Source of the DNA: Prostheceraeus crozeri
Lineage: Eukaryota > Platyhelminthes > Polycladida > Euryleptidae
Assembly: GCA_907163375.1 (NCBI GenBank)
Contig: CAJQUW010005364.1
Span: 146,902 to 210,901, forward strand
Direction of reading: 5' to 3'
DNA length: 64,000 bases
Made by a program: the position numbers and the translations under genes. The notes under the pieces were generated by a model. It saw only the letters and a list, made by a program, of their open reading frames with translations, was not told the DNA's origin and made no database searches. Below are positions 13,401 through 51,120 of the stretch, piece after piece (position 1 is the stretch's first letter; each line of letters opens with the position of its first letter).

Positions 13401-13509
13401 CTATCAATTGATGAAAATGTCAATTTCATAAACATTGAATCGACTGACAACTGTTAAATTTCACTGATAAAAGCGAGTAGAATTTTGTCAGTCACAGAGG
13501 CATGATAAA

Positions 13510-17160: not shown

Positions 17161-18370
17161 AGGACAAGTTAGTTGAGTGCTTTGGTGAAGGTCAGCATGC
17201 GCATCGTCCACATGGCTCGACGACAAGCGCCGTAGTTCCCATTCAGGATCATATTTCCACATCCCTTGACTCAAGAAGCACATTGACTATGCGTATGATA
17301 TGTCTGGATACTTCAAAGGCATTTGATCGATTGCGACATAATCGTTTATTGAATTTTCTATCATCGATGGGACTTAATTCTGGTTTTCTGAATTGGTTGT
17401 TGTCGTATCTCATCTCCCGATCTTTTCAGGTGAAAATTAATGGTAAATGTGGCTCCGTGGTTGATATACTCTCAGGAGCTCCGCAAGGCTCAGTTTTGGG
17501 ACACTACCTCTTCATTGCGTTTATGGGTTCATTTGATTTTAGTGCAGACCACATCAAATGTGTGAAATATGCCGATGAAGTGACAATAATGGGACTACTG
17601 AATCTCATGAACAGATTTTGTTGTCCTTATCAGACATTGTATTGAAGGTTCAAAATATGCTTTGAATATTTCTTGCTCCGCGTACATCATTGAAATATCC
17701 TGTTTAGGTTCCTTCTAATTTTGTCAGCGTTGATTTTGTTCGAATTCTTGATGTCACGTTTACAAATAGGCTAACGTGGAATTTGTATGTAAGTGACATT
17801 TTGAAGAAGGGGTTCGCCGTCTTTACCGGTACATCATCCGTTGTCTGCGTCAGACTTTGGGGAACCATGAACTAATTGTAATTTTCCATGCAATCATCAC
17901 TTCCTTATTTACTTTTGTATCACCGGTTTTTGGTCATCCTTCTAAAACCTTGACTGAAAAGACTGATCGTTTTTTTTCAGAAGATCACACCGTTTAATTT
18001 GTGGACGTGAGTGTGAATGTGGCAAGTCTGACCTGTTTTCGGACATGTTACTTCGAATTTGGTTGAATTTTTTGCATAACACTGTGAAGCTAACTCTTGT
18101 CATCTGCTACATAACTTTGTGCCAAGTCGCTTGAGAATCAGTGATCACTTTTCGATTCCTTTATCGCGTACTGCCAGACGATCAAACTCTTTTTACCCTT
18201 GGATTTGTGTGGAAGCAAATGAGTCTTTGTACAAAATTTAGCCAGCATTATTATTCTCTTACTGAATACTTTGTCACATTATCATCTACACGTACTTGAT
18301 TATTGCATTGAATGCTGTATTGATGATTTCCATTATTCTAAATATAAACACATCTCTCTCTCTCTCTCAG
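17161..18370 (+). pseudogene. Non-LTR reverse transcriptase, 3' part of the interrupted gene
   Basis: Continuation of the RT broken at 10,453. Visible: GEGQHAHRP, motif A (MICLDTSKAFDRLRHNRLL, 17,303), motif B (SGAPQGSVLGHYLF, 17,476), motif C region altered (KYADEV in place of YADD, about 17,566, so the second catalytic Asp is replaced by Glu), then a frame-broken thumb (YIIRCLRQTLGNHELIVIFHAIITSLF, 17,825-17,930). The 3' untranslated tail ends in (CT)n at 18,354-18,369. The modified active site and several stops make it inactive. Confidence 0.8.
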
Positions 18371-20040: not shown

Positions 20041-20395
20041 AAATATCATTTAATCAACCTTCCGTTACAGCGCGTCGTGGTCACAAATTACCGTCCCGGA
20101 GCTACATATATAGTTATTATGGTGTACATATATTTTACGTGCATTAGTAAATTATAAAGATAGTTTGATCGTACAAATCCGAAAGACTTTCCTAATAATA
20201 CACATCCTACATCGAACATTCTCCTTCTGTATCCTACTTCATATCTAAATTGCTCATAGTCTGTATAGTTCTGATGCGCAAAAGTTGAAGCTATCTAAGG
20301 TTTCAAGTGCGAGAGAATGAAAAGTGGAATGAGGCTTTAGATTTTGATCAATTCCTTGATATTGATGTCAACTAAGAATGAATATTTTATTTTCA

Positions 20396-20758
20396 GATAG
20401 ATTTGAAGTACACACTCTTGAGTTCCTCGAGCCACAAACATTGCGGCAGGGCTTTGTGCACGCTCGTATCCGTAGCAATTGCTATTTTCCGAAACGTGGA
20501 TTTAAAGGATTTTCCGAAGTTTATAAAATAAATCCCTTAAGGTGGAACACCAATCAGCATCGCGGGTGGAAGACTGAATTTACTATGAAGAAAATTATAA
20601 ACTACATATTTTTTGAGAAAGGCACAAACCTTCTTCCATTCAAGTTTTCCTATTGGTACCCAGGTACCAGAAAAGAAATTTATGTGAATCTCACGAAACC
20701 TGTGTCATTACGTAAGTTGAAGCAAATTCCATGTTTTGTACACACCATCATTGCCTGA
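20396..20758 (+). CDS. Possible terminal exon of an unknown host gene
   Basis: A 120-codon open stretch ending in TGA at 20,756-20,758. It is preceded by a good 3' splice site (TATTTTATTTTCAG ending at about 20,395), which is why I take it as an exon rather than starting at the upstream ATG. The residue composition is protein-like and basic/aromatic (GFKGFSEVYKINPLRWN, FSYWYPGTRKEIYVNL). I do not recognise the family, and no partner exon is identified upstream, where transposon remnants occupy the sequence. It may equally be a fragment of an unrecognised element. Confidence 0.3.
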   Translation, partial: DRFEVHTLEFLEPQTLRQGFVHARIRSNCYFPKRGFKGFSEVYKINPLRWNTNQHRGWKTEFTMKKIINYIFFEKGTNLLPFKFSYWYPGTRKEIYVNLTKPVSLRKLKQIPCFVHTIIA

Positions 20759-21066
20759 CAAGTGATTAAAAAAAAACGCTTATCAAATGCGCTACAAATC
20801 CTTATCTATGAGACCACAAAATATCCTTGAAACACAAATAGCTTTTAAAAGCTTCCTGATAAAATCTTAATTAGAATCCTGATCAATACTTAACAAAAAT
20901 GTTTGAAAAGTCTGGTAGGAACAAAACGAAGGCCGAGGAAAATTAAATCAGTTATCTAGCTTATTTCTTGCAATAGTTCACACTATAAGTCACAAAGTCC
21001 TATTAAAAGGTACAGCATACTCCGTCCAATTTTTAAGTTATATATTCGTATGAAAAGGTACATAAA

Positions 21067-21327
21067 TAGCAGGCGTCCAACGCCTTCAAAAATTAGCAAA
21101 GCAACACAACTTTATAAGTAAGCCGACTTACTGCTGCTGTCCATGACTGTCGGCTCTAAACTGCCTCCATGGCCAAACACTTGACCCGCTGCTAAAATAG
21201 CAGGCGTCGAACGCCTTCAAAAATTAGCAAAGCAACACAACTTTATAAGTAAGCCGACTTATTGCTGCTGTCCATGACTGTCGGCTCTAAACTGCCTCCA
21301 TGGCCAAACACTTGACCCGCTGCTGCT
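21067..21327. repeat. Tandem duplication, two 131-bp units
   Basis: Two nearly identical copies starting TAGCAGGCGTC at 21,067 and 21,198 and ending TTGACCCGCTGCT. Only a few bases differ. The second copy abuts the TA at the left end of the Tc1-like element. The near identity suggests a recent duplication. Bases 20,760-21,066 contain no recognisable feature. Confidence 0.85.
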
Positions 21328-21328
21328 A

Positions 21329-22984
21329 CAGTCCGTTTCATAAAAAGTGGATCATCCTAAAATTTGACTAAATAAAACATAAGTATGATACAGAAAGCAT
21401 TTTTCATGTTATTGCATGTCCTTAATATATTTAGATGTCCTTATATAATCTGATAAGCTATGATACAGTAACGGTTCTTAAGAAGCTAATATTTTGTGGC
21501 CCTACCCTTATTGTCAATGACATTACCAATTCGTCTAGGCATTGATTCGATAATATCGTTGATTTTTGACTGATCTAACTTTCTCCACTCTCTTTTTAAC
21601 AGTGACGTAAGTTGTGATGCGCCATCTGTAGGTAGCAGTGAACGACGAACGTTACGTTTTAGAATACTCCATACATTTTCTATGGGATTCAGATCAGGAG
21701 AACGAGCTGGCCAAGATAATGTCCTAAGCCCTAATTGAGACTTGCACAAGTTGACTCTACTACTCCTGTGACACGTAGCATTATCATCCATAAATAACCA
21801 AGTCGATGGATCACCAGGTTGATCTGTCATTTGGCCAATGTTCATTCGTAAAACATTCACATAGCGTTCAGAATTCATGGTTCCTTGCTGTATGTGAAGT
21901 TCAGAGCAGCCATTGGTCCAAATGCCAGCCCAAATTAGTAGAGTCGCACCACCTTGTACCCGGGGACGATGTAAATGTCTCGGAATTTCCTGATCAGATT
22001 TTATCCATAATTTCAATCGACCCTCACTATCCTTCAGACGGACTGATGCCTCATAAGACCAGACAACCCGATCCCATTGATTTCGCCAGTGACAATGACT
22101 CATTGCCCATCTGAAACGTCTTTTTGTATGCTGATCTGATAATTCGATCTGAGAGGGTCTCTTACAGCTCTTGAAATTCGACTCAATAAGTCTTCTACGA
22201 ATAGTGGACTTAGAAATAGACGAGTATAGTGCAGCCATCTCAGTTAACGAGAGACTTGGATCAACTTTAACAAATCTCAAAATTAGGCGGTCTCTACGTT
22301 TGGATGTTTTGCGTGGACGGCCAGAGCCCTCTTTACGACAGAGTCGAAAATCATCATTATGCCATCGATGCACATTTGTGTAAGGGACATTTAGTCGCTT
22401 GCTTGCAGCTCGCAAAGAAAACCCTTGTTCTAGCAAGGCTGACACTTTGCCTTTTGTGAATGCGATCTCGTTATTGTTCATTTGTGCTTTGTATTGTTTT
22501 CAACCGGTAAGAGATAGATTTCTAGCTGAAAGCAATCAGGAGTGCTGCCAACACCACCGCAACGAAGTCAGGAAGCTATGGAACATGAAGTCCAGTTAAT
22601 CACATGTAGCAGTTACATTATTGTTGATGAATAATGGTGCTATACTGGCTCTGATTGACCGATATTCTTTAGTTTTGTTTTGCTTGATAGCTTTTGGCTT
22701 GTAGAACAACATATTACATAACAAAGGAAACAAATGTAATTTTATAAGAGTGAGGTATGATTTTGTGTAACATTGCTAAATGAAGATCAAATTATCTACT
22801 ACTTCTTTATCTATAACAGGAAAACAACTCAATATTCATGCTTGAAATTTCCAACAATGATATTAGTAAGCACAACTGACATATCTTCCAAATTTCAGAG
22901 AAATTCGTTCAAGTTTGGCGGAGTTAGACAAAGTTGAAGTTAAGGCGATGTTTAAGGGTGATCCATTTTTTATGAAACAATCTG
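21329..22984 (-). mobile_element. Tc1/mariner-like transposon, 1.66 kb
   Basis: Inverted termini CAGTCCGTTTCATAAAAAG (21,329) and, inverted, CAGATTGTTTCATAAAAAA (ending 22,984), with the canonical TA duplication at 21,327-21,328 and 22,985-22,986. It carries a single minus-strand transposase gene. Bases 22,482-22,984 are the 5' arm and hold nothing else recognisable. Divergence between the two termini and a damaged catalytic residue indicate an old copy. Confidence 0.9.
21486..22481 (-). CDS. Tc1-like DD34E transposase with first catalytic Asp replaced
   Basis: 331 residues, full length for the family. N-terminal paired helix-turn-helix DNA-binding region (KVSALLEQGFSLRAASKRLNVP; SGRPRKTSKRRDRLILRFV, with the GRPR hook between), then the DDE core: WDRVVWSYEASVRL, where the family normally has Ser-Asp-Glu (here Tyr, codon TAT for GAT, near 22,052); GGATLLIWAGI; the second Asp in FMDDNATCHRS; and Glu in SPDLNPIENVWSILK. 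The ORF is otherwise uninterrupted. Loss of the first metal-binding Asp should abolish catalysis although DNA binding may persist. ATG at 22,481 matches the typical start. Confidence 0.9.
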   Translation of the reverse strand: MNNNEIAFTKGKVSALLEQGFSLRAASKRLNVPYTNVHRWHNDDFRLCRKEGSGRPRKTSKRRDRLILRFVKVDPSLSLTEMAALYSSISKSTIRRRLIESNFKSCKRPSQIELSDQHTKRRFRWAMSHCHWRNQWDRVVWSYEASVRLKDSEGRLKLWIKSDQEIPRHLHRPRVQGGATLLIWAGIWTNGCSELHIQQGTMNSERYVNVLRMNIGQMTDQPGDPSTWLFMDDNATCHRSSRVNLCKSQLGLRTLSWPARSPDLNPIENVWSILKRNVRRSLLPTDGASQLTSLLKREWRKLDQSKINDIIESMPRRIGNVIDNKGRATKY

Positions 22985-36264: not shown

Positions 36265-37785
36265 TCACTTTGTTTTCCGAAACACTAACGTTATGAGGGA
36301 TTTAGTATCTTTCACATGGATGCACTCTTGTAAACCATTGGTAATTTTGATAGCAATAGAGGGTATAGTTTGTTTGACGACGGGATGATAGAAAATAGAT
36401 TCAAACATCTTCTCGACTATTCCATATGAAGCGTCTTTATCATGAATGAAATCACGTAAAATGTATTCTTTTTTCTCACCAACAGAAATAGGTAGAATCA
36501 AATCACTTTGAATGTAAAGGTGCTGTTCATGTTTATCAAGTGTCATTGGTGTTTCTATACCAATCGTATGCGCAGCAGCAAACACAGTTTGTAGCATTGA
36601 AAAACCAAAGAGTTTTTTCAAATTTTTACTCAATTGACATTGAATGTCATCACCCAGTTTCAGAACAACGCGTTGATTTTCAATTGAAAACGAAATGTGG
36701 TGTGTCTTTGCATCATATTTACTTTTCATCACATGCTTCAACTTCTGTTGTATATAAGGATTTACTACATGAATGAAGCTTTCAACTGTATGATATAGAC
36801 GCGGCATTATATTGATAGCAACTTTAGATTCTTCATAAGACTGGTAAATTTTCTTGATGCGATCGCCATAGATGTCCACCCACCATTCATCATTAACTGA
36901 ATCAGCTTTAGTGTGATATTCATGAGAACCATACACCACACCGCTTCCAATAATAGGCGTATAATGTCTTACAAAATGACGCAAGGTTGGAGAGAAATAA
37001 ACTGTAAGTTTGTCATTATATTTCTGAATAACCAACTTATTTTTGTCCGCCATAATTTTCTCTCCATACTTCTTACCCACAGTCTCATTCCATCGTTTTA
37101 CTAACTCAATAAGTGATAAAGGTTGAACACCACGCTTTTTCAAAATGATGCGTTCTTCGCATTCTACAACATCTTCATCAAATATTTTAAATCTATAATG
37201 AAATTTGTTGATTCGAGTTGAATAAACTTTTTTAACATTTGCAGTAGCAATTGACGTTAGATGTAGTCCATGACCAAAACCAAGATGTGGATAGAATTCA
37301 CTATCCAACCTCAGCGTAAGACCTTTAGTAAAAGAATGAAAGCGGAGGAACTGTCTCCCACTCCAATGATAGATAGTAAACTCATAAGCTTTCTGATTTT
37401 TATTCTTCATGATGGAAGTATTACCACTGTTGAATGCCTTAATAATTTTCTCATTCCCAAATGGCTCATAAGAATCTGATTTTATCTGAATCCATTCATA
37501 GTTCCACTTTCCATCTGATGTTAAATTGTATGGGAACTGAAATGCATTATTCATCGTTATTCCATCATGGGTGCGAGGAGTCAATATCATTTCTTCCAAA
37601 TCATTCACATTCTGAATATTGCTATCATAGCAAATACTAGAAACGCCAACTTCCCATTCACCTTCTAAATGCAGTGGCCGATTTAATTCTACTCGATAGT
37701 CTGATGGTTTATTTTTGGGAAATTTATTCATAGAAGCATTACTGGGCAAGTAGATTAGAAACGAGTCCTTATTTTCACTTTCCAT
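36265..37785 (-). CDS. Large Polinton protein with WEVG motif, paralogue A
   Basis: About 506 residues from the Met of MESENKDSF (37,785); an earlier in-frame ATG at 37,815 abuts the octamer-like motif and is less likely. The N-terminal block FLIYLPSNASMNKFPKN, then LEGEWEVGVSSICY, aligns with the next gene's FYHILLSNAATKRF and LNGNWEVGVTQLVY, so the two are ancient tandem paralogues. I know this N-terminal pattern from unannotated proteins tied to invertebrate Polintons; function is undetermined. Long beta-rich sequence without enzyme motifs or membrane segments suggests a virion or capsid-associated structural protein (inference). It lies 9 bp downstream of paralogue B and may be co-transcribed, though it has its own motif at 37,816-37,825. 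Confidence 0.7.
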   Translation of the reverse strand: MESENKDSFLIYLPSNASMNKFPKNKPSDYRVELNRPLHLEGEWEVGVSSICYDSNIQNVNDLEEMILTPRTHDGITMNNAFQFPYNLTSDGKWNYEWIQIKSDSYEPFGNEKIIKAFNSGNTSIMKNKNQKAYEFTIYHWSGRQFLRFHSFTKGLTLRLDSEFYPHLGFGHGLHLTSIATANVKKVYSTRINKFHYRFKIFDEDVVECEERIILKKRGVQPLSLIELVKRWNETVGKKYGEKIMADKNKLVIQKYNDKLTVYFSPTLRHFVRHYTPIIGSGVVYGSHEYHTKADSVNDEWWVDIYGDRIKKIYQSYEESKVAINIMPRLYHTVESFIHVVNPYIQQKLKHVMKSKYDAKTHHISFSIENQRVVLKLGDDIQCQLSKNLKKLFGFSMLQTVFAAAHTIGIETPMTLDKHEQHLYIQSDLILPISVGEKKEYILRDFIHDKDASYGIVEKMFESIFYHPVVKQTIPSIAIKITNGLQECIHVKDTKSLITLVFRKTK

Positions 37786-37815
37786 ATTATTCACATTGGA
37801 AAAATATATTAGCAT

Positions 37816-37825
37816 ACTTTTGCAT
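37816..37825 (-). promoter_or_regulatory. Octamer-like motif before paralogue A
   Basis: ATGCAAAAGT on the minus strand, 30 nt before the preferred start at 37,785 and overlapping the stop codon of the upstream gene. Confidence 0.4.
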
Positions 37826-39222
37826 TAACTCTTCATTCGGAAATGGAGTGTAATACTTGTCACAGCATCTTTATGAAAAGGAATCAACGCACCAGCATCA
37901 TCATAAATGGCAATATCAATTTGTGGGATGTAGTTTGATTTCAGCTTTGTATAATGCACTTTCTTGAAAGTATGCTCAGATAAAATACTGCAGCTTTTTG
38001 GCTGGTATGGTATCATTGCTAGCAATGGAGCTTCAACATCTCCCACACGTACATCTTCACCAATATTGGAATATATCTGAAAATAGTTAATACGACGCGA
38101 TAGCGACATGTCTGCGCTAGCTTTGGTTACAGTACCACTTTTAAAGATATTTTGATCAAAACCCAAAATGTCCATTAGAGTTTTATCCATAATTAGTTCA
38201 ATACCTTTTCCATTTATAGTGAGAGACAAAGTACCTTCTTTTTCAGAAAATGAAATATGTTGCTCATTAATCACTTCATTTAAATAATCTACAACCAATT
38301 TAACCGAAGTAATAATGCGAGGCATCAACACTCTTGTTTCATGTAAGAAACCACCAAAAGGCTCTACACACTTTCTGTATAAAGATACGGCCCATTCTGT
38401 ATCAAATTGATTTGACCTTTCACATGGTAAATGTTGCATATCAGATTTTCCATGAACAGCTGCAGAACGATGTCGTAAGAACTGATGAAAATCTTTTGAA
38501 CAAACTAATACTAGATCATCATCATTTAATTTGCTTATTGCAATATGATTAGATGATTTGATATAAGTCAATGTTGCCACTTGTTTACCATCAACTCGAA
38601 GGAGATAATTAAATTTCTTCAATAATGTTTCAGGAGTCATGTTTGTCTTTCTTGGTTTAATCACAATCTTCTTCACCAACGTCTTCTCATTTCTTGGAAT
38701 AAGATCTACATAATAAGCTTCCTCTCGATATATTAACTGTTTATGACCACTTATGTGGTAATTAACGTTAAAATTATCATAGCTTGTTAAGGCGCTAGCG
38801 AGGTAGCCTAAATCATTTCTTAAACTTGGACTTAAACCAACAATCCAATCTTTCTCAACTACATGATGTACATAATTATAATCATCATTGTGCGGAGTAA
38901 ATTGGACAATATGTTTACACGCTTTATTCAAGAAATCATATATAAACTTTTTACATGATAAGAGATCTTTCTTTGGCCACTGTGGAATGTATACTCGGCA
39001 CCCCTTTTCACATTGATAAGCAGCTGTACGCCTCATATTAATAGTCATCACCTCATGATCAAAAGTATAGACACAGTTGCTATAAACAAGTTGAGTGACA
39101 CCCACTTCCCAATTTCCATTTAGCTGTTGTGCATGATCAATGGGAGTAGAAAAGAGTGCGGCTCGATTGCTAGTAAATCTCTTTGTAGCCGCATTGCTAA
39201 GCAAAATATGATAAAACGACAT
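37825..39222 (-). CDS. Large Polinton protein with WEVG motif, paralogue B
   Basis: 465 residues from the ATG at 39,222 (MSFYHILLSNA); a non-ATG extension to 39,243 is unlikely because the paralogue starts at the same place. Contains LNGNWEVGVTQLVY near residue 38 and matched spacing of aromatic and charged words with paralogue A, including LMDILGFDQNIF against KLFGFSMLQTVF. Cys pairs (CEKGCRVYIP) are not arranged as a zinc finger. The start is 36 bp from the start of the oppositely oriented PC4-like gene, a very short divergent intergenic space that contains the motif CAACTTTGCAT. Function unknown; a structural role is inferred. Confidence 0.7.
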   Translation of the reverse strand: MSFYHILLSNAATKRFTSNRAALFSTPIDHAQQLNGNWEVGVTQLVYSNCVYTFDHEVMTINMRRTAAYQCEKGCRVYIPQWPKKDLLSCKKFIYDFLNKACKHIVQFTPHNDDYNYVHHVVEKDWIVGLSPSLRNDLGYLASALTSYDNFNVNYHISGHKQLIYREEAYYVDLIPRNEKTLVKKIVIKPRKTNMTPETLLKKFNYLLRVDGKQVATLTYIKSSNHIAISKLNDDDLVLVCSKDFHQFLRHRSAAVHGKSDMQHLPCERSNQFDTEWAVSLYRKCVEPFGGFLHETRVLMPRIITSVKLVVDYLNEVINEQHISFSEKEGTLSLTINGKGIELIMDKTLMDILGFDQNIFKSGTVTKASADMSLSRRINYFQIYSNIGEDVRVGDVEAPLLAMIPYQPKSCSILSEHTFKKVHYTKLKSNYIPQIDIAIYDDAGALIPFHKDAVTSITLHFRMKS

Positions 39223-39257
39223 TTTTATATTGCTAATCTGCAACTTTGCATAACATC
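39223..39257. promoter_or_regulatory. 35-bp divergent start region with octamer-like motif
   Basis: Minus-strand ATGCAAAGTTG at 39,251-39,241, 19 nt before the ATG of paralogue B and, read the other way, 6 nt before the ATG of the plus-strand gene at 39,258. The space is too short for two independent TATA promoters. Confidence 0.5.
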
Positions 39258-39614
39258 ATGAAGACTTGGATTTTGGACTCTCTACAATATATCAGAGTTG
39301 ATCGTGATGGAAACGTACATTTCAAAAATTCTCATGGTCATACATCAAGAGGAATTACATTAACATGGCGACAATTTGTCAACCTCAATGATATCATGAG
39401 GGATTTGGAATATTTTGAAACATTAAGATTCATCTCCTTGGGTGATCAAGTTTGGCTTCAACATTACAGAAATGAAATTCAAATCTACCATTCTCATTCC
39501 GCAAACTGTTTCTCATTTCGCAAATACAATTGGGAGAAGTATAGAAGATACATACATCGCTCCATCATGACATTTATTCGTCGTGAGTTCATCGCCCTAC
39601 TATGCAAATCTTAA
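39258..39614 (+). CDS. Small Polinton protein, possible PC4-like coactivator fold (paralogue 1)
   Basis: 118 residues from ATG 39,258. Pattern: VHFKNSHGHTSRGITLTWRQFVNL, then LGDQVWLQHYRNEIQIYH, then a basic helix WEKYRRYIHRSI. The GxTSRGITLTxxQFxxL stretch is reminiscent of PC4/p15 single-stranded-DNA-binding transcription coactivators (KKGISLTxxQWxxL), but the order of strands is not a clean match. The following gene is a paralogue. It lies in a plus-strand cluster with the TBP-like gene, which would suit a transcription role. PC4 assignment is inference and weak. Confidence 0.6.
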   Translation: MKTWILDSLQYIRVDRDGNVHFKNSHGHTSRGITLTWRQFVNLNDIMRDLEYFETLRFISLGDQVWLQHYRNEIQIYHSHSANCFSFRKYNWEKYRRYIHRSIMTFIRREFIALLCKS

Positions 39615-39636: not shown

Positions 39637-40287
39637 ATGAGTTGGAAATTGGATTCCCTACAACGTATTGAAACGGATCATGATCGAAACGTCTATTTCA
39701 AAGATTCAACTGGAAATGTGAGAAGAGAGTTTGCTTTATCTTATCGTCATTTTCAATCTCTACATCATATCATGAAGGACTTGAAATACTTCTATATGAA
39801 AAGACATTCACGTATTGGAAATCGCATCTGGCTGCGCGTCAACAATCGGCGAATTCAACTCTATCATTCCCAACTGCATACTAACTTCACATTTCATCAA
39901 GGTAGTTGGGAAAAGTATAAAAGGAAGGTACATCGCTCAATTTACTCATTCTTTCATCATGAAGCGCCATCGCTACACCATCGTCAACATTCTCCGTCGC
40001 TTCAGACTCTACACCAAAATCGATCTCACAACATTACACCAACAGCTTCCAAACAGCAAGTATTACCCGGGCCGTCCTCAAATGTTAGTGGTGAAGATGA
40101 ACAATTCACGGAATCTTCAACTCTTCCCAAATGGGACTGTACAGATTCTCGGCGCCCTTTCTCATTCATCGGCGCAGTCAATGCGCTTAGAGCTACAAAG
40201 ACTACTACGTCGGATATGGAAGAGGGAGAGGTGTGTGATGTCGAATCTGACTGTGGACAATATGGTGATCTCTACTCAATTGAGTGA
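39637..40287 (+). CDS. Small Polinton protein, PC4-like paralogue 2, with long overlapping tail
   Basis: Residues 1-108 match the preceding gene (LDSLQRIETDHDRNVYFKDS, FALSYRHFQSLHHIMKDLKYF, WEKYKRKVHRSIYSFF). The paralogue ends about ten residues after this point, but here the frame stays open for another 108 codons, overlapping the TBP-like gene by 329 nt in a different frame. The tail is Ser/His/Gln-rich then acidic (MEEGEVCDVESD) and has no paralogue counterpart. It may be a real overlapping extension or an accident of a lost stop codon. Confidence 0.6.
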   Translation: MSWKLDSLQRIETDHDRNVYFKDSTGNVRREFALSYRHFQSLHHIMKDLKYFYMKRHSRIGNRIWLRVNNRRIQLYHSQLHTNFTFHQGSWEKYKRKVHRSIYSFFHHEAPSLHHRQHSPSLQTLHQNRSHNITPTASKQQVLPGPSSNVSGEDEQFTESSTLPKWDCTDSRRPFSFIGAVNALRATKTTTSDMEEGEVCDVESDCGQYGDLYSIE

Positions 40288-40504
40288 CAGTCTATCATTT
40301 TTGAAGATTCGTACCAGCAGTTACAGTTTGTGTTATGAACCCGAACTTTTTCCTGCAGCTCTCATTAGTTGTTGGTTACCTGTGCATGTGGCAATCTTTC
40401 ATAATAGTAAAGTGATCATTACTGGACTAAAATCTCATGAACAAGCAAATATGATCCTAGACTATCTCATTGAGTATGTACGTACCCAGCGGATTGTAAA
40501 ATAA
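39959..40504 (+). CDS. Polinton-encoded TATA-binding protein (TBP) homologue
   Basis: 181 residues from ATG 39,959, the size of the conserved TBP core, with its two-fold repeat. Repeat 1: VNILRRFRLYTKIDLTTL (9-26), YYPGRPQMLVV (35-45), LFPNGTVQILG (55-65). Repeat 2: LTVDNMVISTQL (97-108), YEPELFPAALISCW (126-139), IFHNSKVIITGLKS (146-159). Both SGK-type hairpins and the diagnostic YEPELFP are present. Of the four intercalating phenylalanines in cellular TBP, three are kept (F56, F131, F147) and the fourth position is Pro (P41). Expected role: bend promoter DNA and nucleate pol II initiation, here probably at element promoters. The start lies inside the preceding gene. No interruption. I know of no routine Polinton gene of this type, but cannot check. 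Identity is secure; role is inferred. Confidence 0.85.
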   Translation: MKRHRYTIVNILRRFRLYTKIDLTTLHQQLPNSKYYPGRPQMLVVKMNNSRNLQLFPNGTVQILGALSHSSAQSMRLELQRLLRRIWKRERCVMSNLTVDNMVISTQLSDSLSFLKIRTSSYSLCYEPELFPAALISCWLPVHVAIFHNSKVIITGLKSHEQANMILDYLIEYVRTQRIVK

Positions 40505-40530: not shown

Positions 40531-40992
40531 TTATTTCAAATCATGATAGAACTTACAAATCATTTTTTCATTAGAGGATGGATTACATGAAAAGTTTTGA
40601 ATAACAGATGCAAATCGAGATACATGTAAACGTTTTAAGATGAAGTACAGTACAAAAGCACCACACGTTGATGAAAGTGGATGTTGTAGTATGCGTTCAT
40701 TTCGCTGATATTGACGCGTATGTTTTCTCAACCACTGCTGTGTTGGTATATTTGGAGGTTGAGCAAGAGAGTCAAATAGTTCACCACGTCGGTCTTCTCC
40801 AATAAAGATCGCTTTCCAATGCTCACCGCCTAAATTCTGTGAATGAGTGTTTAGCACAATAAAGATGGGATAGTGATTTACTGCAGGTGGTAAGGTATCG
40901 AGTGAATAGACATTATCGAAAGCTTTCAACGTCGCTTCGTCTGCATTACGCTGCACTTTAGTCTTAATATCGTCAGCAGTCAACCAACTCAT
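40531..40992 (-). CDS. PRO: Adenain-like maturation cysteine protease
   Basis: 153 residues. The Polinton/adenovirus-type C48-like protease that cleaves capsid and core precursors during virion assembly. Catalytic residues are visible at positions typical of adenain: His58 (GEHWKAIFI), Asp74 (GELFDSL), the oxyanion Gln103 (ILQHPLSS) and nucleophile Cys110 (SSTCGAFVLYFI). Frame is intact. Its ATG shares one base with the capsid gene stop codon (TAATG at 40,990-40,994), so it is likely translated from a shared transcript. The 3' end converges on the TBP-like gene with a 26-bp gap. Confidence 0.93.
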   Translation of the reverse strand: MSWLTADDIKTKVQRNADEATLKAFDNVYSLDTLPPAVNHYPIFIVLNTHSQNLGGEHWKAIFIGEDRRGELFDSLAQPPNIPTQQWLRKHTRQYQRNERILQHPLSSTCGAFVLYFILKRLHVSRFASVIQNFSCNPSSNEKMICKFYHDLK

Positions 40993-42270
40993 TAACGATT
41001 ATACTGAAGAATCACGTCACGATACTTTGTAATTTCAATATTTGAATCGAAGACTGCATAAATTAATACATTGATCGTCTCAGGTAGTGTTCTTTTGAAC
41101 GTCAAATCCAAACGAATATTATGAGGCACGTTCGCTTGACGATAGGGTGCACTAATATCGCTGTCAGCAGTCAAATCAAATGCATAAATAGTATATCCAC
41201 TCTTAAACTCTTTCATAGTCAGTCCGTTGGTATCATCCGTATTGTAAAAGCCAAAAACATCCATAAAATCAACATAACTGCGCATAAATTGATCCGAAGC
41301 AAAATCTGGTTTGTAGGGTGGACCAGGATGGCTCACACCATTAACACGTAAAGCAATTTCACTTAACTGATTGTGTTTAAAATTGAAAGGATTCTTCTTT
41401 ATATTACCATTAAATGCATCATTTTCAACCATTGCCACCATGAGGAGCTTCGGCGCTTCCGATGGAAAGAGGCCATCTTTCATGAAACTCTTTTGATCTT
41501 TCGGAATTGTAAAGGTGAGAAGCTTTGTATGCTGAACGGGGTAAATGGCATTTTGGCGGTTAAGACCTTCAGCATGCCCTCTAATGACACTTGGATTCGG
41601 TACTACTCGACGAATGTAAAGTGCAATATCTTCCACATGAATTCTAAAATTGTCAACTTTAGCAAATGCATTCAGCGCAAATTCAGGCTTATTCAATGTC
41701 AGCTTGAGTCGCATGCTGGTATTACACAGTAAAAACTTTGACTGTCTAAAGAAGTCTAAATTCAGCGGACCATATAGCTGACATACTCTACTATCTTTAA
41801 TCATAGCAGATCGCTTTACAAAGCCACTGTTTGTTTCAACATCAAATTTTCCTGCTTCATCTCTGTACCATCCCATGGCTTCCATATGACTTTTTTTGTG
41901 CTGCTGGATGAAACTGTGATACATGATTGAAATATGATTTATAGGGATAATCGCTTTGACCACCTTCCACCTGCTGCTCTCCAATCGTTAGAGAAACATC
42001 ACGAAGTAATGTAGTCAATGGTAAATTGTTCAGTCCAACTTTATGTGCATCGTCAATAGCAGTTCCATCTGCTTGCTGAATTCTAAACCTCAAATCAAGC
42101 ATCGCATAACTCAAATCTATGTAGTCATCACTACCACCAGGAATAACAAATTCAATGGGGCCAGCATTCTCAGCTGTTCGAGGATGATAATCTACAATAC
42201 TTGAACTAAGAATATCTGTCTGTATGGCTTGTTGATCGAACAAACAAAAACCGGAAGTTTTACACTCCAT
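40992..42270 (-). pseudogene. MCP: Capsid protein of the F54H12.2-like family, single frameshift
   Basis: Reads from ATG 42,270 in one frame to about 41,890, then in another frame from there to the stop at 40,992-40,994; together near 425 residues. N-terminal words DYHPRTAENAGPIEFVIPG, DYIDLSYAMLDLRF, LTTLLRDVSLTIG and later ENDAFNGNIKKNPFNFKH, YTIYAFDLTAD belong to the family annotated as 'F54H12.2-like' in invertebrates, associated with Polintons. By size and position next to the protease I infer it is the double-jelly-roll major capsid protein. The break lies at a run of seven T (plus strand 41,891-41,897); a change of one base there would restore the frame, so it is either a fresh mutation or a base-calling error. 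The start is 2 bp after the stop of the upstream basic gene. Confidence 0.85.
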
Positions 42271-42272
42271 GA

Positions 42273-42728
42273 TTAGAAGTTATAGCAGCGTCGTCGTTTA
42301 GCGCCTGATGAATGATTAGAGCCTCTGCGACGTTTGCGTGAATGCCTTTTGACTGAAGATCGCACCTTACTAGCTCCGCGATGTTTCCTCCTTCCTTTAT
42401 TCATTCGTTTAGGTGATTTCTTTCCTTGAGTAACACCAGCAATGGTCTGCTTCAATGTTTTTAAACCGCGTTCCTTCCCACGATTCAACAAACTGCTCTT
42501 AAAACTTCTACCTCTGGAAAGATCACTAGCAACATCACCAGCAAAGCCAACGGCATTACTTAAAACATTTCGTTTTAAAGATCTACCGACATTGGATATG
42601 AGAGGTGCTACAACAGATTTCAGTGCACCAAGTATGCTACCTCCACGTTGGCGGCGAGCACCGATGTAAATTTGTCCTCCGCCACTTACATAGGAGGGTC
42701 GTGAATAAAATGAGGCAGTTGGATTCAT
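42273..42728 (-). CDS. Basic Gly-rich virion-type protein (pVI/core-like)
   Basis: 151 residues. An N-terminal GGGQIYIGARRQRGGSILG segment with Gly-Gly sites that could be protease substrates, an amphipathic stretch (ALKSVVAPLISNVGRSL), and a very basic C-terminus (KSPKRMNKGRRKHRG, RKRRRGSNHSSGAKRRR). This layout is that of adenovirus-like minor capsid/core proteins such as pVI or pX and of proteins beside capsid genes in Polintons. Expected role: cement the capsid or package DNA (inference). First gene of the minus-strand basic protein-capsid-protease run. An octamer-like motif lies 27 nt upstream of the ATG. Confidence 0.75.
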   Translation of the reverse strand: MNPTASFYSRPSYVSGGGQIYIGARRQRGGSILGALKSVVAPLISNVGRSLKRNVLSNAVGFAGDVASDLSRGRSFKSSLLNRGKERGLKTLKQTIAGVTQGKKSPKRMNKGRRKHRGASKVRSSVKRHSRKRRRGSNHSSGAKRRRCYNF

Positions 42729-42755: not shown

Positions 42756-42766
42756 CAACTTTGCAT
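42756..42766 (-). promoter_or_regulatory. Octamer-like motif before the basic-protein/capsid/protease cluster
   Basis: ATGCAAAGTTG on the minus strand, 27 nt before ATG 42,728. Identical to the 11-mer before paralogue B at 39,241-39,251. Confidence 0.5.
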
Positions 42767-42989: not shown

Positions 42990-45900
42990 ATATAATAAAA
43001 AAATACAAAAAACGGACAAAAAACAAATGCAACAAATACCAGCAAACGATAAACTACCTAAAAAAAAAATAACGTTTAATCACAAAAACTAACTACAATA
43101 ACAAAAAAAAGTAAAATCAAAACAAAAACTGCAAATAAAACAGTAGCGCAAGACAACTCCAAAACAAAAAAAAATACAAAAGACCTACGACCAACCAAAC
43201 CGCTAACAAAATAAAATACAACGCCCTATAAAAATAATAAAAAAAAAATAAATACCATATAACTACCCAGACAGAAAGCTAACGAAAACAATACACGCGA
43301 ACGAAAAATACAACAAAAACAGAACCAATAACTAAAAATAAAAAACTCGTACAGCTAAAAAAAACATACACTACCTCCTCAGTCACAAGAAGCCTAACTC
43401 GCAAAAAACTAAACAAAAAAAAAAAACAAAAACTACAAAACAACCAAAAATAAAAAAAACTCAATCAAAAAATAAAAAACAACTAAAAAAAGCTACTCAA
43501 AATAACAAACACTGCGTTCAAAAGCAAAAAAAAACTAATTACTAAAATAAAAACAGACTACAAAAATTAAAAAAAACGGTAATAAAGGTAAATAGAAAAG
43601 CTAACTAAAAACAACAAAAACAAAATAAATAACTACCGAGAATAACAAAACTAACCTAATATTAAAAAAACACACCGACAAAAAAAGAAAAAAAAAACTA
43701 AATACACGAAAAAAAAACACACAAATACACCAAAAACTAATAAACCCTAAACAACCACGCAAGCGAGGAAACAACTTTAAAACAATATTAAAATCACAAA
43801 AACGCTAACAAGGCTAAAACCAGCAAACAAACCCGCACCAAAAACCAACCCCTTTAGCTAAAACAAGCACCAATACCATAACAAAACCAAAACAAAAATC
43901 AAATAAAACGTACAGCACCTAAAAACCACACAAAAGACCCACTCCCTCAATAACGTATACAACTACGGGGTTAAAATCAACTTTAAATTAAAAATCCATA
44001 AACCCCGCACGCTCCCCGAGAACCAAAACAACCACTATCATACAACACAACTACCCACTTCCTCACTCCATCCGACCCAACCCCCTCCTCCTCGCGTCCC
44101 CTTTACATCAACCCCCCCAGCCCCACAAACCACCTCCACCAGAATCTCACCAACACCATGCCACCCCCCCCGACACAGCCCCGACAACCGCTCCTCACCG
44201 CTCCCCCACCACCGAGCTTGCAATACCACTCTATGGATACCTAAACACGGGTTAATTACGAAATAAAACTCCCCTAAAACACTGCAAGGCTCGATAAAAA
44301 ACCACTTACCAACTAAACCCAACCCTAACAAACTAAAAACATGAACAGTCTACCACGTCTAAACAAACCTAAGCTAAAACCTAACCTAACAAGCTAATAA
44401 CCAAGCCAAAATACAACACAAAATAAACTACCACCCTTAAATTTAAAGATAAAAAACAAACACAAAAGCTACGGACAAAAAACGCTAAGAGCTAGACTAG
44501 AAAAGCTACCAAACAGAAACGCAAAAAAACTAACATAAATAAGAACACACAGTAAAGCTAAAAAACACAGCAAACGCTAAAACGAGCTACCTACCGCCAG
44601 ACAAAAATAAAACGCTACTAAAAAAAACAAAACTTGCGAGAACAAATACAGCAACAGCTATAACCCGTGAAAAAACTACACAATAGAAAACTAAATATAA
44701 AAACAAAATTACATTACCGTAAACAGGAGCTACCTACTCAACTTAAACGACACCCCGATAGATACAAACAATAAAAACCAGACGATAATAATAACCAACT
44801 CTAAACAAGATACATCAAACACTTAGAACAACTGAAATCAAAAACCGTACGAAACTACTCAACTACAGAAGCAAAACAATAACCTCAAAAAAACTACCGC
44901 TACCCGCAAACTACAACTACTATCAAAACGACATATAATACACCAGCATAAAACCACAACCTAACGCTAAAAAAAAAACCCCAAAGCTAAATAAAAAACT
45001 AAACCACTCATACACGGGGAAGCACCAAAAAAAAAATCACCGAAGCTCAAACCAAACTCTAAACGAATTACCTACGAAAAAAAAAAACTAATACAAAAAA
45101 CATAAAACATAACAAGAAAAAAACTTAGCTAAACCACTAAAACAAATAAACCAAAAAACACGTCTAAAAAAATTATAAAATAATAATAGAACCTAACACT
45201 AAAAACCAGGAAAAAAACAACACAAGATAAACTCACCGCTAAATACCACATACATCACCCACTGACAAAAAAAACTAACAAAACTAATAAAACCAAACCA
45301 AAACCAAAGAGTCAAAGAAAAACCAAAGAAACACGTTACAACCCCCCGTTTTTAAACAGAAATAAACAAAAAAAACCCAAAAAACATACCAAACCTACCG
45401 CCCAAACAACAAACAAAACCCTGCTAAAAACCCACGCCGCTAAAAAAACGCTTAAACTTCACCACCGAACAACCAAAAAACAACGAGGCACGCCACGCTA
45501 TAAAAACTCAAATTTAAAACAAAACACCACATCTAGCTCGTAAAAAAATAAAAGTAAAACTAACCCAATATCAAAAAACGCTCCAACTACTGCTACGAAA
45601 TAAAACCAAAAAATACACAAGCCAACAAAACATCACAGAACACAGCAACACATAAATACACAGCATGCGTCTACACCGAGCGCTGCCAAAAAACAACCAA
45701 CATAAACACTGTCAAAAAAAACACAACACAGCTATAATACAATACAAGCCTACAACAGCCAAAAACAACCATAAATAACGACTAATAAAGACATAAAAAA
45801 ACAGCAACCCTTCAACTAACACAAAAATACACAAAAAAAACTCAAACAAACATACCAAGCACAAAAAACCTGAACTAATAAAAAAACAACAACTACACCA

Positions 45901-46550
45901 AAAAGGGGGGGGGGGAAATAAAAAAAAAGAAATATAATAACACGTACAAACGTAACACAGTACCACAACCTAAACTAAAAAAATACTACCAAAAAACCTA
46001 AAAAAAAAAATAAACTGAAACTTCAACACAAAAAACTTACAACAACACCAACCAAAACTAAAAAAACAACACAAAAACTAACTCCGACGTAATGAGTAAA
46101 CCTCAGTGGCGTTCGAGTCGGCCCAATGAATAGAGGACCACACAACACCACAGCCCCAGCCCGCTTGTAGATATCTCCACCCCAACAACAGGCCCCTATC
46201 CACCCCACCACACAGCACGCCTAATACCCAACCAACAAAACACCATAACCAAAGCTCACTTACCAAACGCACCACCAATTGAGAACCTCAACCCCAACCT
46301 CCGCTCGAACTCCATAACAACCCTAACTAACCAAGCTAAACAGAAAACTAAAAACACAATAAAGACCAAAAAAACAAAAAAAACAAAAAAACTAAACCTG
46401 CGACAAACACACACGACTAAAAACAGCTACAAAAACAATAGATAAAAACTCAAAACATAGAAAAAAGGCTAACAGGGCAATCCCGCATAAATACTAAAAA
46501 ACCAACACAAAACGAAAAAAAATAACCTACAATAAAACCAAACAAAAACC
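42990..46550. repeat. A-rich, G- and T-poor tract
   Basis: About 3.5 kb in which A dominates (40 of 60 bases in 43,561-43,620) with C next; G and T are scarce on this strand and appear mostly in CTA, GCT and CG contexts. Transitions from normal Polinton sequence are abrupt, near 42,990. No protein-like frame is seen. An island of ordinary composition (46,080-46,190) and a short C-rich patch (44,040-44,215) interrupt it. It is not a simple tandem repeat. It could be genuine biased DNA or a consensus artefact. Confidence 0.8.
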
Positions 46551-49500
46551 TAAACATGAACCATAAAACTCCCTCTTCACAAACACCACACTCCCAGGCC
46601 CCACACCAACAACAAACAATAACAAGAGCTCAACCCGACACAAAACCCACATTCCACACACCCCCCAACCCTGCCCCGCACCAACCCCGCGTAAACCCGC
46701 CCGCACCCCGAGCGAAGCCCCCCCCCCCACCTACCCACCCGGCAGTACACCTGAAGCTCAATCCACTCCCTACCTCCCGAGCACCACCCAAAAAAACACT
46801 TCAAAACACAACCCACCCCTCACAAAACAACCACCGAACCACGGCACCCAATCGTTCGAGACAACCCCATGTGTCCCCGCAACCCCCCCACCCTATTATC
46901 ACCCCTCTCGACCCCGACTCCACCCGGTACGACGACGCACCCCGAATCCACCACCAAATAAACCCACCACCCCCCACCCCCCAACCACCACCCCCGCACC
47001 CCCCCGAGCACCGCTTCCCCCGCGTCCCTCTATTCCCTGCCCGGGTACTACCGACCCCCCCACCCCCGTTGGTGGCTCCGCCCCCCCCCCTCCCCCCCAC
47101 ACCCCAAATGCAACCCCCCCCACCGCCCCCTAGCCTCCCCCCACCCCCCCCCCGCCCCAATTAGCGACAACACCCCGGACAGCAGAGCTCCAGTACACCC
47201 AGACTGCCCACACCGCGCACCCCCCCTCCCACCCCACCGACCACCCACCCCCCACCCATGCGACATACTCCTCCCGTACACCGCTACCCCCTCACCTACC
47301 TCCCCATCCGCCACCCCACACCCCCCCCCCCTGGCCCCCCCTCCACCACCCAGCGTGCCCTCCCCCCCCACCCTCCCCGCCCCGCTAAACCCCGCACACA
47401 CCAAACCCACCCCCGCCGCTCCCAACCCGTCGTCCCGCCTCCGCCACCCACCCGGCTCCCCGACCACGGAGCCCCCAAACCACCCATCTGTGCCCGACGC
47501 TAGTCCCACCCGTCCGACCCCCAAGCGACAACCCGCCCCCCACTGTCCCCCCATTATTCCAAGGCCAACCCCCCCCCCGGGGCACCAACCATCCAACTTC
47601 CCCCACCCCCCATCAATCCCGTCCTCCCTGCTGCACCTCCCCCCCACTCCCCCCCGTCACCAGTCTCCCCCCACTTCCCCCGTCCCCGCCCCCACCCCCC
47701 GGTTACGATCAACACCCACACCCCGCCAGCGCCCACCCACCACAGCTCCTCCCCGACCCACGTTAGGAGCCCCCCCGGCTCGCTACCCCCAATACCACCG
47801 CCCCTACACCCCCCCGACCCACAACGACACCCCACCCCCATCCCTCACACCCACCCCCCCACCATTCAGGTCCCCTATCACCCCCCCGCCTACGACCCCC
47901 CCCCCCCCCCTCCCCCCACCCCCCCCCCTCCGCCCCCCCCCCACCCTGCCCACCCCACCTACCCCTACCACCCACCGCCCCCCCCACCACCCCGTCGTAT
48001 CCCTCCCCCCCCCCCCCACCCACTCACTCCCCCCCATCCGGCCCCTACACCCCCCCCGACCCCCGCCCCCACACCCGGTCTCCCCCCCATACCACTGACA
48101 GAACTCCCCCCCCACCCGCTCCCCCACCCCCCCCTGCTCCACCCCCCTCCGGGTGCGAAACGATAAATGCCGACCCCCGCCCCCGAGCACCCCCCCCCGA
48201 CCCCCCCCCCCCCCACCCTTCCCCCTCACCGCTCGAGCCGCCCCCCCCCCACCCCCCCCCCACCGGCGATCCAGGGAGCCGCGCCAATCCGCCCCACTCC
48301 CACATATCCACCCCGTGCCCCACAAGCACCACCCCACATCCCCCCCTCACCCCCACGTGCCCCCCCCCCCCCCCCCACTCCCGAGTAGACCGAGGTCCCC
48401 ACCCTCCTCCGAACCCCACCCTCTCCCCCTCCCCCCCCACACCAAGCCCCCCAAAAGGCCCGCCTTCTATCCGCTCCCCCACCACGCCCACCCCTCCCCG
48501 ACCATAGCCTTGCCAAATGCCTACCACCCCCCCCGGGCTCCACCCCCCCCCCCCGCACCCCCACCCCTCATAAAACCCCCCTAACCCCCCCCCAAACCCA
48601 TCACCCTCGTGCATACCCTCACCCCCTCCTCACCTCACACGCACCCCCCCCCCCCGCGCGCCGCGCAGCACCCTCCGGCCCCCCCCCGCATCCCCAAGAA
48701 CCCCGCTACGCCTCCCCACACCCCGCGAAATCCCCCCCGTCGAAACGGGATCCCCCCCCCTCACCCCCCCACCCTCCCCCCCCACCGTCCACGACGCACG
48801 CCCCGCCGCGCCCAATCCACCTCACCCCCACCGCCCCCCTGGTTGGCGCACGCTCCCATACCCCCCCCTCCACCCCCCCCCCCCCCACCCATTCTTTCCG
48901 CCTGAGCACGCCCGCCCTCCCCTCCCCCCCGCGCACCCCATGGACACCCACCAGAGCCCCAAGCAGGCGAGCCCCGGCCCGCCCCACCCCCACAACCCGA
49001 CGACCCACCACCGATCCAAGCCGCACACCACCTCCACGCCCCCGCCCCACCAGACGCTAGCCACCCGCACCCCGCCCCCGACACACCGGACCAACTGCAC
49101 CAGGCCGGATTCCAATCGCCACACGCACCTCCCCACGGAGCTCCCTCAATCCCTAAAACGTACCTGAACACCTACGACCCACACTGCCCCCGCACCCCGC
49201 TCACCACCCCCCCCCACCCGACCCCAGCACCAACCCCCTGTCTACCCGACGCATCCCCCCCCAAAACCGCTCCACCAGAGCGCCTCCCCCGCCCCCCCCA
49301 CCTTAAACCCCCACCCCCCCTAGGGCTCATCCCACCGCCCCCCCCCGCCCCCCCCCCCGCTCACCCACACACCACAACCCCCCACCGCGTGAGCACCAGG
49401 GAGGATCAGCAACCTCCACCCCCCCACCGCCCCCCCCCCCCCCACCCCCCCGCAGACCCCCCGCTAGAACCCCCCCCCCCCAGGACCGCACTCGCGCCTC

Positions 49501-49735
49501 TTGCCCTCCCTCCCAGCCCACATCCAGCCCAGAGCCTACACCCTTCGCGACCCTACCCCACCCCCCCCCACCTCTGTCACCCCCCGACACCCCAAAACCC
49601 AACCACGCAACCCCAGCTCCCCCCACATGCCCCCCCAACGGCCACCCCCCCCCTACCTCCACCACCAGCCCCCCAAGCACCACCCCACCCCCGCCACCCC
49701 CCACCCCCCCACACCCACCGGAAGTCCTCCATTTT
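46551..49735. repeat. Extremely C-rich tract
   Basis: About 3.2 kb dominated by C (over 80 percent in lines such as 47,881-47,940), with scattered A, T and G and many C runs of 8-16. Long open frames on both strands (Pro/His/Thr-rich on plus, Gly/Trp-rich on minus) result purely from composition and are not genes. The tract ends sharply at about 49,735 where integrase-derived sequence starts. Confidence 0.85.
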
Positions 49736-50605
49736 CTATCATACACGTCAATCTATCCCCTTGTCGTAGGTCGCAGACAACTTTTTGGTTTAATCCCTTG
49801 ATACTGTCCAAATACTCCTCTGTCAAATTCGGAAGGACCCCTTTAGCAAAAAACACCTATTTTCACTTTTGAGATACGAACTTTACACGCCAATTTTCAA
49901 ATCACTTTTTCACTATGTGTGCGTTTTCGTTGAAATGATTGCGCACTATTTATATACATTGTCCAGCTTTTACATCTATCTGGTCTGAGTCCCAATTGAA
50001 CGATGGATAGAGAAGATTGTAGTCATGGAGTGTATCTTGTAGAACCTTTGTCTATTTTGTGTCAAGTTGGGCAGTAAAATGGTCGCCTCCACAATCCGAT
50101 TTTTTAATGTGCTGATTAAAATCGTTCAAAAACGAGATGCTGCAAATATAAGCGCTCTTTACACTAAAACAACTTCATTGTCAATGCCTCTCAAATAATC
50201 TTGTCCATCATGCTGATTTCCAAAACTCTTGTCCTTGATCACTCAGAATTCTTTTTGGAATGCGACATTCTTCGAAAAATTGTTTGGAATGCATTTTGCT
50301 ACTCCTTTCACTTCTTTAGTTTTTTAAAAGGTTGAGCCCACGGCATAACGCGAGAAAATATCAAGGACGGTTAAAAATAAAATTATTGCCCGAAGTTATG
50401 TTGTGAAATGGAGGCAACATCGCACCAAAAATCTGCTTGCCCAATGTTCATCCCGATGTCTATGGAACAATATAATGGCGGGGGTGCTGGTACTTTTTTA
50501 CGCTTGTTTGGTGGAGTGTATAGTAGCCTTGACCCTTTAACCATCGTTTCACTTGTGATTGTGGTGAAGACCAACTCGCTTTTTGATAATTTCTTGATTA
50601 GTAGA
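49700..50605 (-). pseudogene. INT: Remnant of the Polinton retroviral-type integrase
   Basis: Minus-strand fragments in at least four frames. In order: IGQADFWCDVASISQHNFG (first catalytic Asp, about 50,410), LDIFSRYAVG (about 50,360), RIPKRILSDQGQEF (second Asp, about 50,200), FSVKSAYIC then VFERF (catalytic Glu, about 50,080), and a C-terminal chromodomain-like tail FFAKGVLPNLTEEYL (about 49,830). These are the DDE signatures of c-integrases that insert Polintons and generate 6-bp duplications. The N-terminal zinc region would lie in the T-rich tract and is unrecognisable; the C-terminus runs into the C-rich tract. Multiple stops and shifts make it non-functional as written. Recognition is by motif order, without database support. 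Confidence 0.8.
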
Positions 50606-50609
50606 TGAT

Positions 50610-51120
50610 TTAGTTAGTTTAGTTTAGGAGGGATCTTAGGATAGGTCTAGAAGTGAGTTAAGATTAGATTGTGATTTTAGTTAGATAGTTTTTTTTTAGT
50701 AGGATTTTTTTTTGATTTTTTTTTGAGGTTAGATTTTTATGGTTTTTTTTTTTTTTTTTTTGTTTTAGTTAGTTTTGTATTGTTTTTAGTTTAAATTTGT
50801 TATGTTAAGTAGTTTCGATTTTTAGTTTTTAGATTTTAGATTTTTTAGTTAGATATATAGATATTTAGATAGATATAGTTTTTGAATTTTTTAGATAGAT
50901 TTAGAGTTTTGTAGGATTTTTTTTTTTCTTTTTTAGTTTTTAGTATAGTTTAGTAGATTTTTAGTTTTGAGATTTTTAGATTTTTTTAGTAGTAGTTTTT
51001 TGAATTTTTCTTTTTGATGCAATTTTTTTTAGACAGTTGTTTTTTTTAGTTTTTTAGTGTTTATTTTTTTTTTTGTTTAGATTTAGGTTTTATAGATAGA
51101 ATGTTTAGTTAGATTAGATG
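50610..51120. repeat. T-rich, C-poor tract
   Basis: About 500 bp, mostly T with A and G (TTTTTAGT-like words, T runs up to 19) and very little C. Its reverse complement resembles the A-rich tract at 43-46.5 kb, so the bias flips strand across the integrase island. It abuts normal sequence at about 51,120. No gene. Confidence 0.85.

Follow-up and report, generated by a model that had tools for sequence, protein, structure and literature searches.

A TATA-binding protein homologue encoded within a Polinton/adintovirus-like element in Prostheceraeus crozeri

Results and discussion

Gene content and state of the element

The window analysed here is a stretch of 64,000 nucleotides of contig CAJQUW010005364.1 of Prostheceraeus crozeri. 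It holds an element in which PolB-like, adenain-like, capsid-like and integrase-like genes lie within about 18-19 kb, together with a gene for a homologue of the TATA-binding protein (TBP). The features of the locus are listed in Table 1.

Table 1. Features of the element and of the TBP locus (positions in the window)
Feature	Position	Strand	Basis and remarks
PolB-like protein, 1266 aa	32159..35959	+	GDTDS motif; endonuclease VII-like part
516-aa protein, paralogue of the 465-aa protein	36265..37815	-	
465-aa protein, paralogue of the 516-aa protein	37825..39222	-	BLASTP E=2e-17 between the two
Gene A, 118 aa, PUR/PC4/Whirly-type fold model	39258..39614	+	
Gene B, with ~113 N-terminal residues paralogous to gene A	39637..40287	+	44% identity over 112 aa
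TATAAAAG, candidate TATA box	39916..39923	+	Sequence; Inr-like TCATTC at 39946-39951
TBP homologue	39959..40504	+	181 aa plus stop, two lobes; PF00352 match
Adenain-like cysteine protease	40531..40992	-	PF02902 E=0.0012, PF00770 E=0.043, both below curated cut-offs
Putative major capsid protein	40992..42279	-	Frame broken: overlapping ORFs 40992-41987 and 41857-42279
Small basic protein, minor capsid (pVI-like) candidate	42273..42728	-	Composition and position
Integrase-like pieces, retroviral-type, frame-broken	49760..50600	-	Motifs by eye

The PolB-like protein has an endonuclease VII-like match above cut-off (PF02945, E=6.3e-07) and weak zinc-finger matches in its N-terminal part, and is 35% identical over 136 aa to a DTDS-bearing piece in the distant locus L001 described below; no PolB match was found among the profiles of Pfam and PHROGs or in the PDB. 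The 465-aa and 516-aa paralogues gave no significant Pfam match and are possibly structural proteins of the element. The adenain-like ORF matched 6lj9_B, protease S273R, with E=0.015, and we take this protease to be that of ASFV. The capsid identity of the adjoining broken frame is putative, drawn from length, gene order and background knowledge, and neither a convincing profile match nor a PDB match was found for it. It has 189 capsid-like homologues, many of them of 424-427 aa among the 120 listed, with weak and odd profile matches to an EF-hand (P0069, E=0.035) and to a PHROG late-promoter regulator (P0068, E=0.0047, no stretch passing alone). P0069, which is 87% identical to the capsid-like protein of the window, is recorded under a Pseudomonadota MAG (AAGK05_12265), which probably reflects contamination. 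The small basic protein had no significant match in Pfam or PHROGs, and the integrase-like pieces had no Pfam match in any of three frames.

In the model of gene A a four-strand sheet plus helix is repeated in tandem. The gene matched no sequence family in profile searches; from the model, its product is possibly a single-stranded nucleic-acid binder. A Nudix hint in gene B (E=0.06; E=0.042) was set aside, being below cut-off in a gene whose paralogue has a PUR/PC4-like fold model.

The original prediction called the element a Polinton. We regard this label as likely, but in this copy each hallmark gene is either weak in profile searches, broken or not seen. No A32-like packaging ATPase was seen among the window ORFs scanned, with 43.0-49.7 kb unreadable. 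Of terminal inverted repeats, low-complexity pairs alone were found, and the sequence around the right end is degraded. From 43001 to 49740 (~6.7 kb) G and T each make up at most 0.16 per 250 bp, the sequence being first A-rich and then C-rich, and a C-poor stretch lies beyond the integrase-like pieces, at about 50580-51120. These stretches of skewed composition inside the element look like a sequencing or assembly artefact. The element is damaged in this copy and may be silent. In the flank, three DDE families of transposase are represented by genes or fragments (PF13843, PF13359 and PF13358; also PF01498) at 12092-22481, presumably of piggyBac, Harbinger and Tc1 type (the last PF13358/PF01498).

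The TBP gene and its neighbours

The TBP ORF has exactly the bounds and size first predicted, and the stretches LFPNGTVQILG, YEPELFPAALISCW and IFHNSKVIITG reported for it are all present. Pfam search gave a PF00352 match of E=4.6e-21 (74.9 bits against a cut-off of 22.9), consisting of two stretches that cover both lobes, and the predicted fold is the saddle. Among the structure matches of the model are proteins of Heterosigma akashiwo virus 01 and Terrestrivirus that are named as TBPs, as well as iridovirus and ascovirus proteins that do not bear this name. Phenylalanine occupies three of the four intercalating sites, F214, F288 and F305 in human numbering, as had been claimed, and the F197 site is Pro. 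The ORF encodes a bona fide TBP-fold protein.

The gene had been placed between protease and structural genes. This holds on the right, where the adenain-like ORF is convergent with it; its immediate left neighbours are instead the two small plus-strand genes A and B, the first with its PUR/PC4-like model. The 5′ part of the TBP ORF overlaps the tail of gene B in a different frame. Its claimed membership of the gene set of the element is supported within the window by the element-type genes packed around it, and indirectly by the matching longest-contig sizes of its relatives (see below). TBP is a gene of this Polinton/adintovirus-like element and lies within it.

A family of TBP homologues

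One search, which picks up sequences through exact 5-residue words that they have in common with the query, returned 61 homologues of the window TBP, every one with PF00352 and none named by its source. Their identity to the window TBP is 34-82% in local alignment and 32-78% in the multiple alignment, and the family of 62, including the window member P0001, has 16 invariant columns. Identity to human TBP is 21% for the window TBP and 16-24% across the family.

A tree was built from the 62 family members and three cellular TBPs (human, E. cuniculi and M. jannaschii) with a midpoint root. All 62 members fall on one side of a long 100/100 branch and the three cellular TBPs on the other; a second sub-family of 14 members (100/100) is nested among the others in the drawn tree. 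As the root is a midpoint, the cellular sequences are three and some rows were flagged as long (mj and P0062, mj being flagged for make-up too), the tree shows separation and not origin. A recent host TBP retrocopy is excluded by this branch from the three cellular TBPs and by the low identity to human TBP. With a strong profile match, a saddle fold and a recent retrocopy excluded, nothing that the original prediction had named as counting against it was found.

Searches for TBP loci with DNA context confirmed none in viral contigs (queries P0001, A1, A3 and A5) or genome contigs (query A1), and there was no TBP match in phages (query P0001). A plasmid search with P0021 gave five haloarchaeal records, in which the matched genes are annotated as TBP (29-30%).

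Conserved and lost contact residues

Residues were counted after alignment of the family to human TBP, in human numbering and with gaps left out of the denominators. The functional labels of single TBP residues are those that we take to apply, E284 and E286 being presumably C.L3.2 and C.L3.4 of the scheme of PMC7221094. The intercalating phenylalanines are kept at F214 (62/62), F288 (61/62) and F305 (62/62), and the fourth, F197, is replaced, being Phe in 0/59 and Pro in 58/59 members (3 gaps). On the DNA face of the N-lobe, N167 is kept in 50/50 (12 gaps), V169 in 1/55 and L212 in 3/62; V220 is kept in none and is Gln in all 62, and T222, likewise 0/62, is mostly Leu. On that of the C-lobe, N257 and V259 are both kept in 62/62 and T313 in 61/62, with L303 in 0/62 and V311 in 4/62. 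Divergent DNA-contact residues had been claimed for the window TBP; the changes are family-wide, which makes an altered DNA specificity plausible.

The TFIIB stirrup (E-x-E-L-F-P) is nearly invariant, with E284 in 61/62, E286 in 62/62 and P289 in 62/62, a conservation that is inflated because the EPELFP stretch of the query supplies recruiting words. We take A184, N189, E191 and R205 to be the TFIIA-contact positions. A184 and E191 are each kept in 0/58 (E191 being Lys in 46 and Arg in 4), R205 in 2/62, and N189 in 12/58, P0001 among them. At five basic positions of helix 2, for which the mapping is approximate, the human residue was found in 0 to 9 members (n 57-62); this basic face is presumably used by host regulators. 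P0001 has Arg at two of the five, so that with its Asn at N189 the loss of N-lobe contacts is incomplete. Neither this pairing of kept TFIIB contacts with lost TFIIA contacts nor the PUR/PC4-like neighbour figured in the original prediction.

Candidate promoter motifs

The candidate TATA box TATAAAAG lies 32 nt before the A of the Inr-like TCATTC and 43 nt before the ATG of TBP. It is not enriched, with 2 found against 3.41 expected in the window, of which one lies in the element. In the frame of gene B these bases are read as YK, so that any constraint on them is ambiguous; the paralogous gene A has TATAGA there. Conservation was judged by reading 21 homologues with an extension of at least 14 residues before the core, of which 10, all of family A, reach the position. 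In these protein extensions 'IK', which fits nnT-ATA-AA, stands at the TATA position in 9 of the 10 and in the window; its distance to the start Met is 13 residues in P0018 and 14 in the other 8 and the window. P0025 is without IK at this position, and P0006, with too short an extension, has it at another spacing. Gene B codons can explain such conservation of TATAAA before the TBP genes of the homologues.

No element-wide promoter motif was established by motif counts within the window. ATGCAAA was rejected as a shared promoter motif because it is not enriched (20 found against 19.85 expected). Two exact copies of the 10-mer TGCAAAGTTG stand in the window, at 39241-39250 and 42756-42765, both on the minus strand; the first lies in the bidirectional spacer that separates gene A from the 465-aa gene, the second just upstream of the pVI-like gene. 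It is a possible promoter motif, and was rejected as a shared one, since with one mismatch allowed 12 were found against 7.3 expected and 9 of 100 shuffles were as high.

Indirect evidence for co-occurrence of TBP with element genes

TBP P0021 and capsid-like P0187 have the same longest contig size of 20,463 bp (4 contigs each), as have TBP P0016 and capsid-like P0153 (7,106 bp, 1 contig each) and TBP P0002 and gene-A-like P0064 (1,771 bp). The gene-A-like P0063, which is that of the window, and P0066 agree in longest contig size, at 12,876 and 11,119 bp, with capsid-like P0068 and P0069. The chance of such matches was estimated by jittering longest-contig sizes by 15%, the capsid-like set being the 120 listed of 189. 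For at least two TBP-capsid matches it was 0.11 over all 61 TBP contigs and 0.0006 for contigs of at least 7 kb, a cut chosen post hoc; it was 0.0008 for at least two gene A-capsid matches and 0.055 for at least one TBP-gene A match. The matching sizes are indirect evidence that TBP is co-located with element genes in other contigs.

Among 66 candidate stretches from genome contigs, the capsid-like and PolB queries gave one confirmed distant locus of 30% identity, L001; they found no relative in viral contigs, and capsid-like P0068 found none in plasmids. L001 (3,584 bp) carries capsid-, protease-, ATPase- and PolB-like genes, the ATPase-like one with PF04665 (E=5e-4) and PF13173 (E=1.5e-5) matches, both below cut-off. 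Its 3,584 bp, including six further ORFs of at least 60 aa, gave no TBP match, so that some elements of this kind may have no TBP. The record of L001 (WPAE01000167.1, 1-3584), with an adenain-like gene aboard, is filed under an Ignavibacteria MAG; given the distant Polinton-like element genes that it carries, the contig is probably of eukaryotic or viral origin and was misbinned.

Proposed function of the element TBP

From its sequence, the element TBP seems built to work with the host transcription machinery while avoiding some of its controls. We favour, with moderate confidence, the reading that it is an element-specific promoter factor which recruits host TFIIB and RNA polymerase II outside TFIID/TFIIA/Mot1 control. 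It would bind a TATA-like site with its altered N-terminal DNA face, its conserved C-terminal stirrup would dock host TFIIB, and the docked TFIIB would bring host RNA polymerase II to the element genes. The loss of TFIIA-contact positions and of much of the basic helix-2 face would let it work outside TFIID/TFIIA/Mot1 control, and the PUR/PC4-like proteins encoded just upstream may help by binding the opened promoter or the single-stranded DNA of replication. For this protein, the binding of DNA, the recruitment of TFIIB, the choice and timing of promoters and the PUR/PC4-like partnership are properties that we infer.

The use of host TFIIB and host Pol II is suggested by the kept TFIIB glutamates, the loss of most N-lobe contacts and the scanned ORFs: ten element-core ORFs gave no TFIIB match in Pfam, with a TFIIB gene possible in the unreadable 43.0-49.7 kb. 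The PF00352 match over both lobes, the saddle model, the PUR/PC4-like neighbour, the TATA sequence at Inr spacing and the matching contig sizes also speak for the favoured reading; the inflated stirrup count, the basic residues and the Asn kept in P0001, the single TATAAAAG of the element, the lack of a TBP match in L001 and the damaged state of this copy speak against it. Alternatively, the protein might be a TBP-like decoy that damps host transcription by unproductive binding of TFIIB (or Brf) or by occupancy of host TATA sites. A protein that keeps the TFIIB contact but has lost an intercalating Phe, a number of DNA-contact residues and the majority of TFIIA contacts would suit a decoy, but we consider it rather unlikely, as the DNA-facing asparagines (50/50; 62/62) and three phenylalanines are kept, as expected of a DNA-binding protein, and TBP adjoins a gene modelled as a nucleic-acid-binding fold. 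Wholly viral initiation of the kind of herpesvirus ORF24, with the polymerase bound through other element proteins and not through TFIIB, is compatible with the invariant polar Gln in place of V220 on the N-lobe DNA face (62/62), since the ORF24 DNA interface is polar-rich in the extracts of PMC12529657; by the same extracts ORF24 is without the TFIIB glutamates, which the element TBP family keeps, and we judge this reading unlikely.

TBP might also guide integration, recruiting Brf/TFIIIB or bending DNA so that insertion occurs near promoters. Some yeast retrotransposons target Pol III genes, and integrase-like pieces lie inside the element, but ARAGORN (bacterial code) found no tRNA gene in the window, and such a role seems improbable to us even though, in extracts of PMC7221094, the residue facing the first stirrup glutamate is conserved in Brf1 and Brf2. 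TBP being a host gene family, a captured host gene or retrocopy without function in the element might be supposed, a reading largely refuted and hardly credible given 21% identity to human TBP (family 16-24%), the 100/100 branch from three cellular TBPs and the open frame packed among element genes.

Returning to the promoter factor, we tentatively suggest, at rather less than even chance, that a Polinton-like lineage has a minimal initiation kit of a TBP with a TFIIB handle and paired PUR/PC4-like binders of single strands, which would form, on host Pol II, a hybrid preinitiation complex that ignores TFIIA/TFIID and host TBP regulators. The element TBP also suggests that a viral polymerase or a viral TFIIB need not accompany a virus-encoded initiation factor. 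An element TBP with kept TFIIB contacts would also be a small testable system for promoter choice and for Pol II start without TFIIA contacts.

Comparison with known systems

In much of the discussion on many eukaryotic DNA viruses, Polintons figure as related or ancestral to them, and we are aware of no description of how Polinton transcription is controlled by the elements themselves. The element resembles Polintons/Mavericks and adintoviruses in its PolB-like, adenain-like, capsid-like and integrase-like genes, and no report of a TBP gene in any of these groups was found in the open-access literature among the matches listed. Gene A is like PURA, PC4 and Whirly proteins in its modelled fold and unlike them in sequence family, having no match. 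The element TBP shares with cellular TBP the two-lobe saddle, three of four intercalating phenylalanines, both DNA-contact asparagines and the TFIIB stirrup. It differs in its identity of about 20%, in the change of the first Phe to Pro, of V220 to Gln and of T222 mostly to Leu, and in the loss of most TFIIA contacts.

In the alga Cymbomonas, integrated virus-derived elements of mirusvirus-like type sporadically include a gene for TATA-binding protein, according to extracts of PMC10675990. They differ from the present element in having an HK97 capsid, with neither a DNA polymerase gene nor one for a double jelly-roll capsid detected, and the extracts describe Polinton-like viruses separately from them (PMC10675990). 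A TBP gene, wsv303 and its orthologues, is listed among nimavirus genes in an extract of PMC10871703, a likeness by listing alone and to a virus of large genome.

With the TBPs of giant viruses and related large DNA viruses the element TBP shares a virus-encoded TBP fold. As the extracts of PMC7221094 have it, two C-lobe TBP glutamates contact TFIIB, viral TBPs vary at them (C.L3.2 being about 40% conserved) and their N-lobes lose the regulator-binding signature; almost all viruses with TBP also encode a TFIIB-like protein, none having been found in poxviruses. Unlike those TBPs, the element TBP keeps the glutamates, and the scanned element ORFs are without a TFIIB match. KSHV ORF24 is, in the extracts of PMC12529657, likewise the TBP-like protein of a DNA virus that uses host RNA polymerase II, a TBP mimic without the TFIIB glutamates; ORF24 has extra domains, whereas the element TBP is minimal at 181 aa. 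If the suggested minimal kit is real, the element would represent a third way of viral TBP use, beside the TBP-TFIIB pairs of giant viruses and the TFIIB-independent late complex of herpesviruses.
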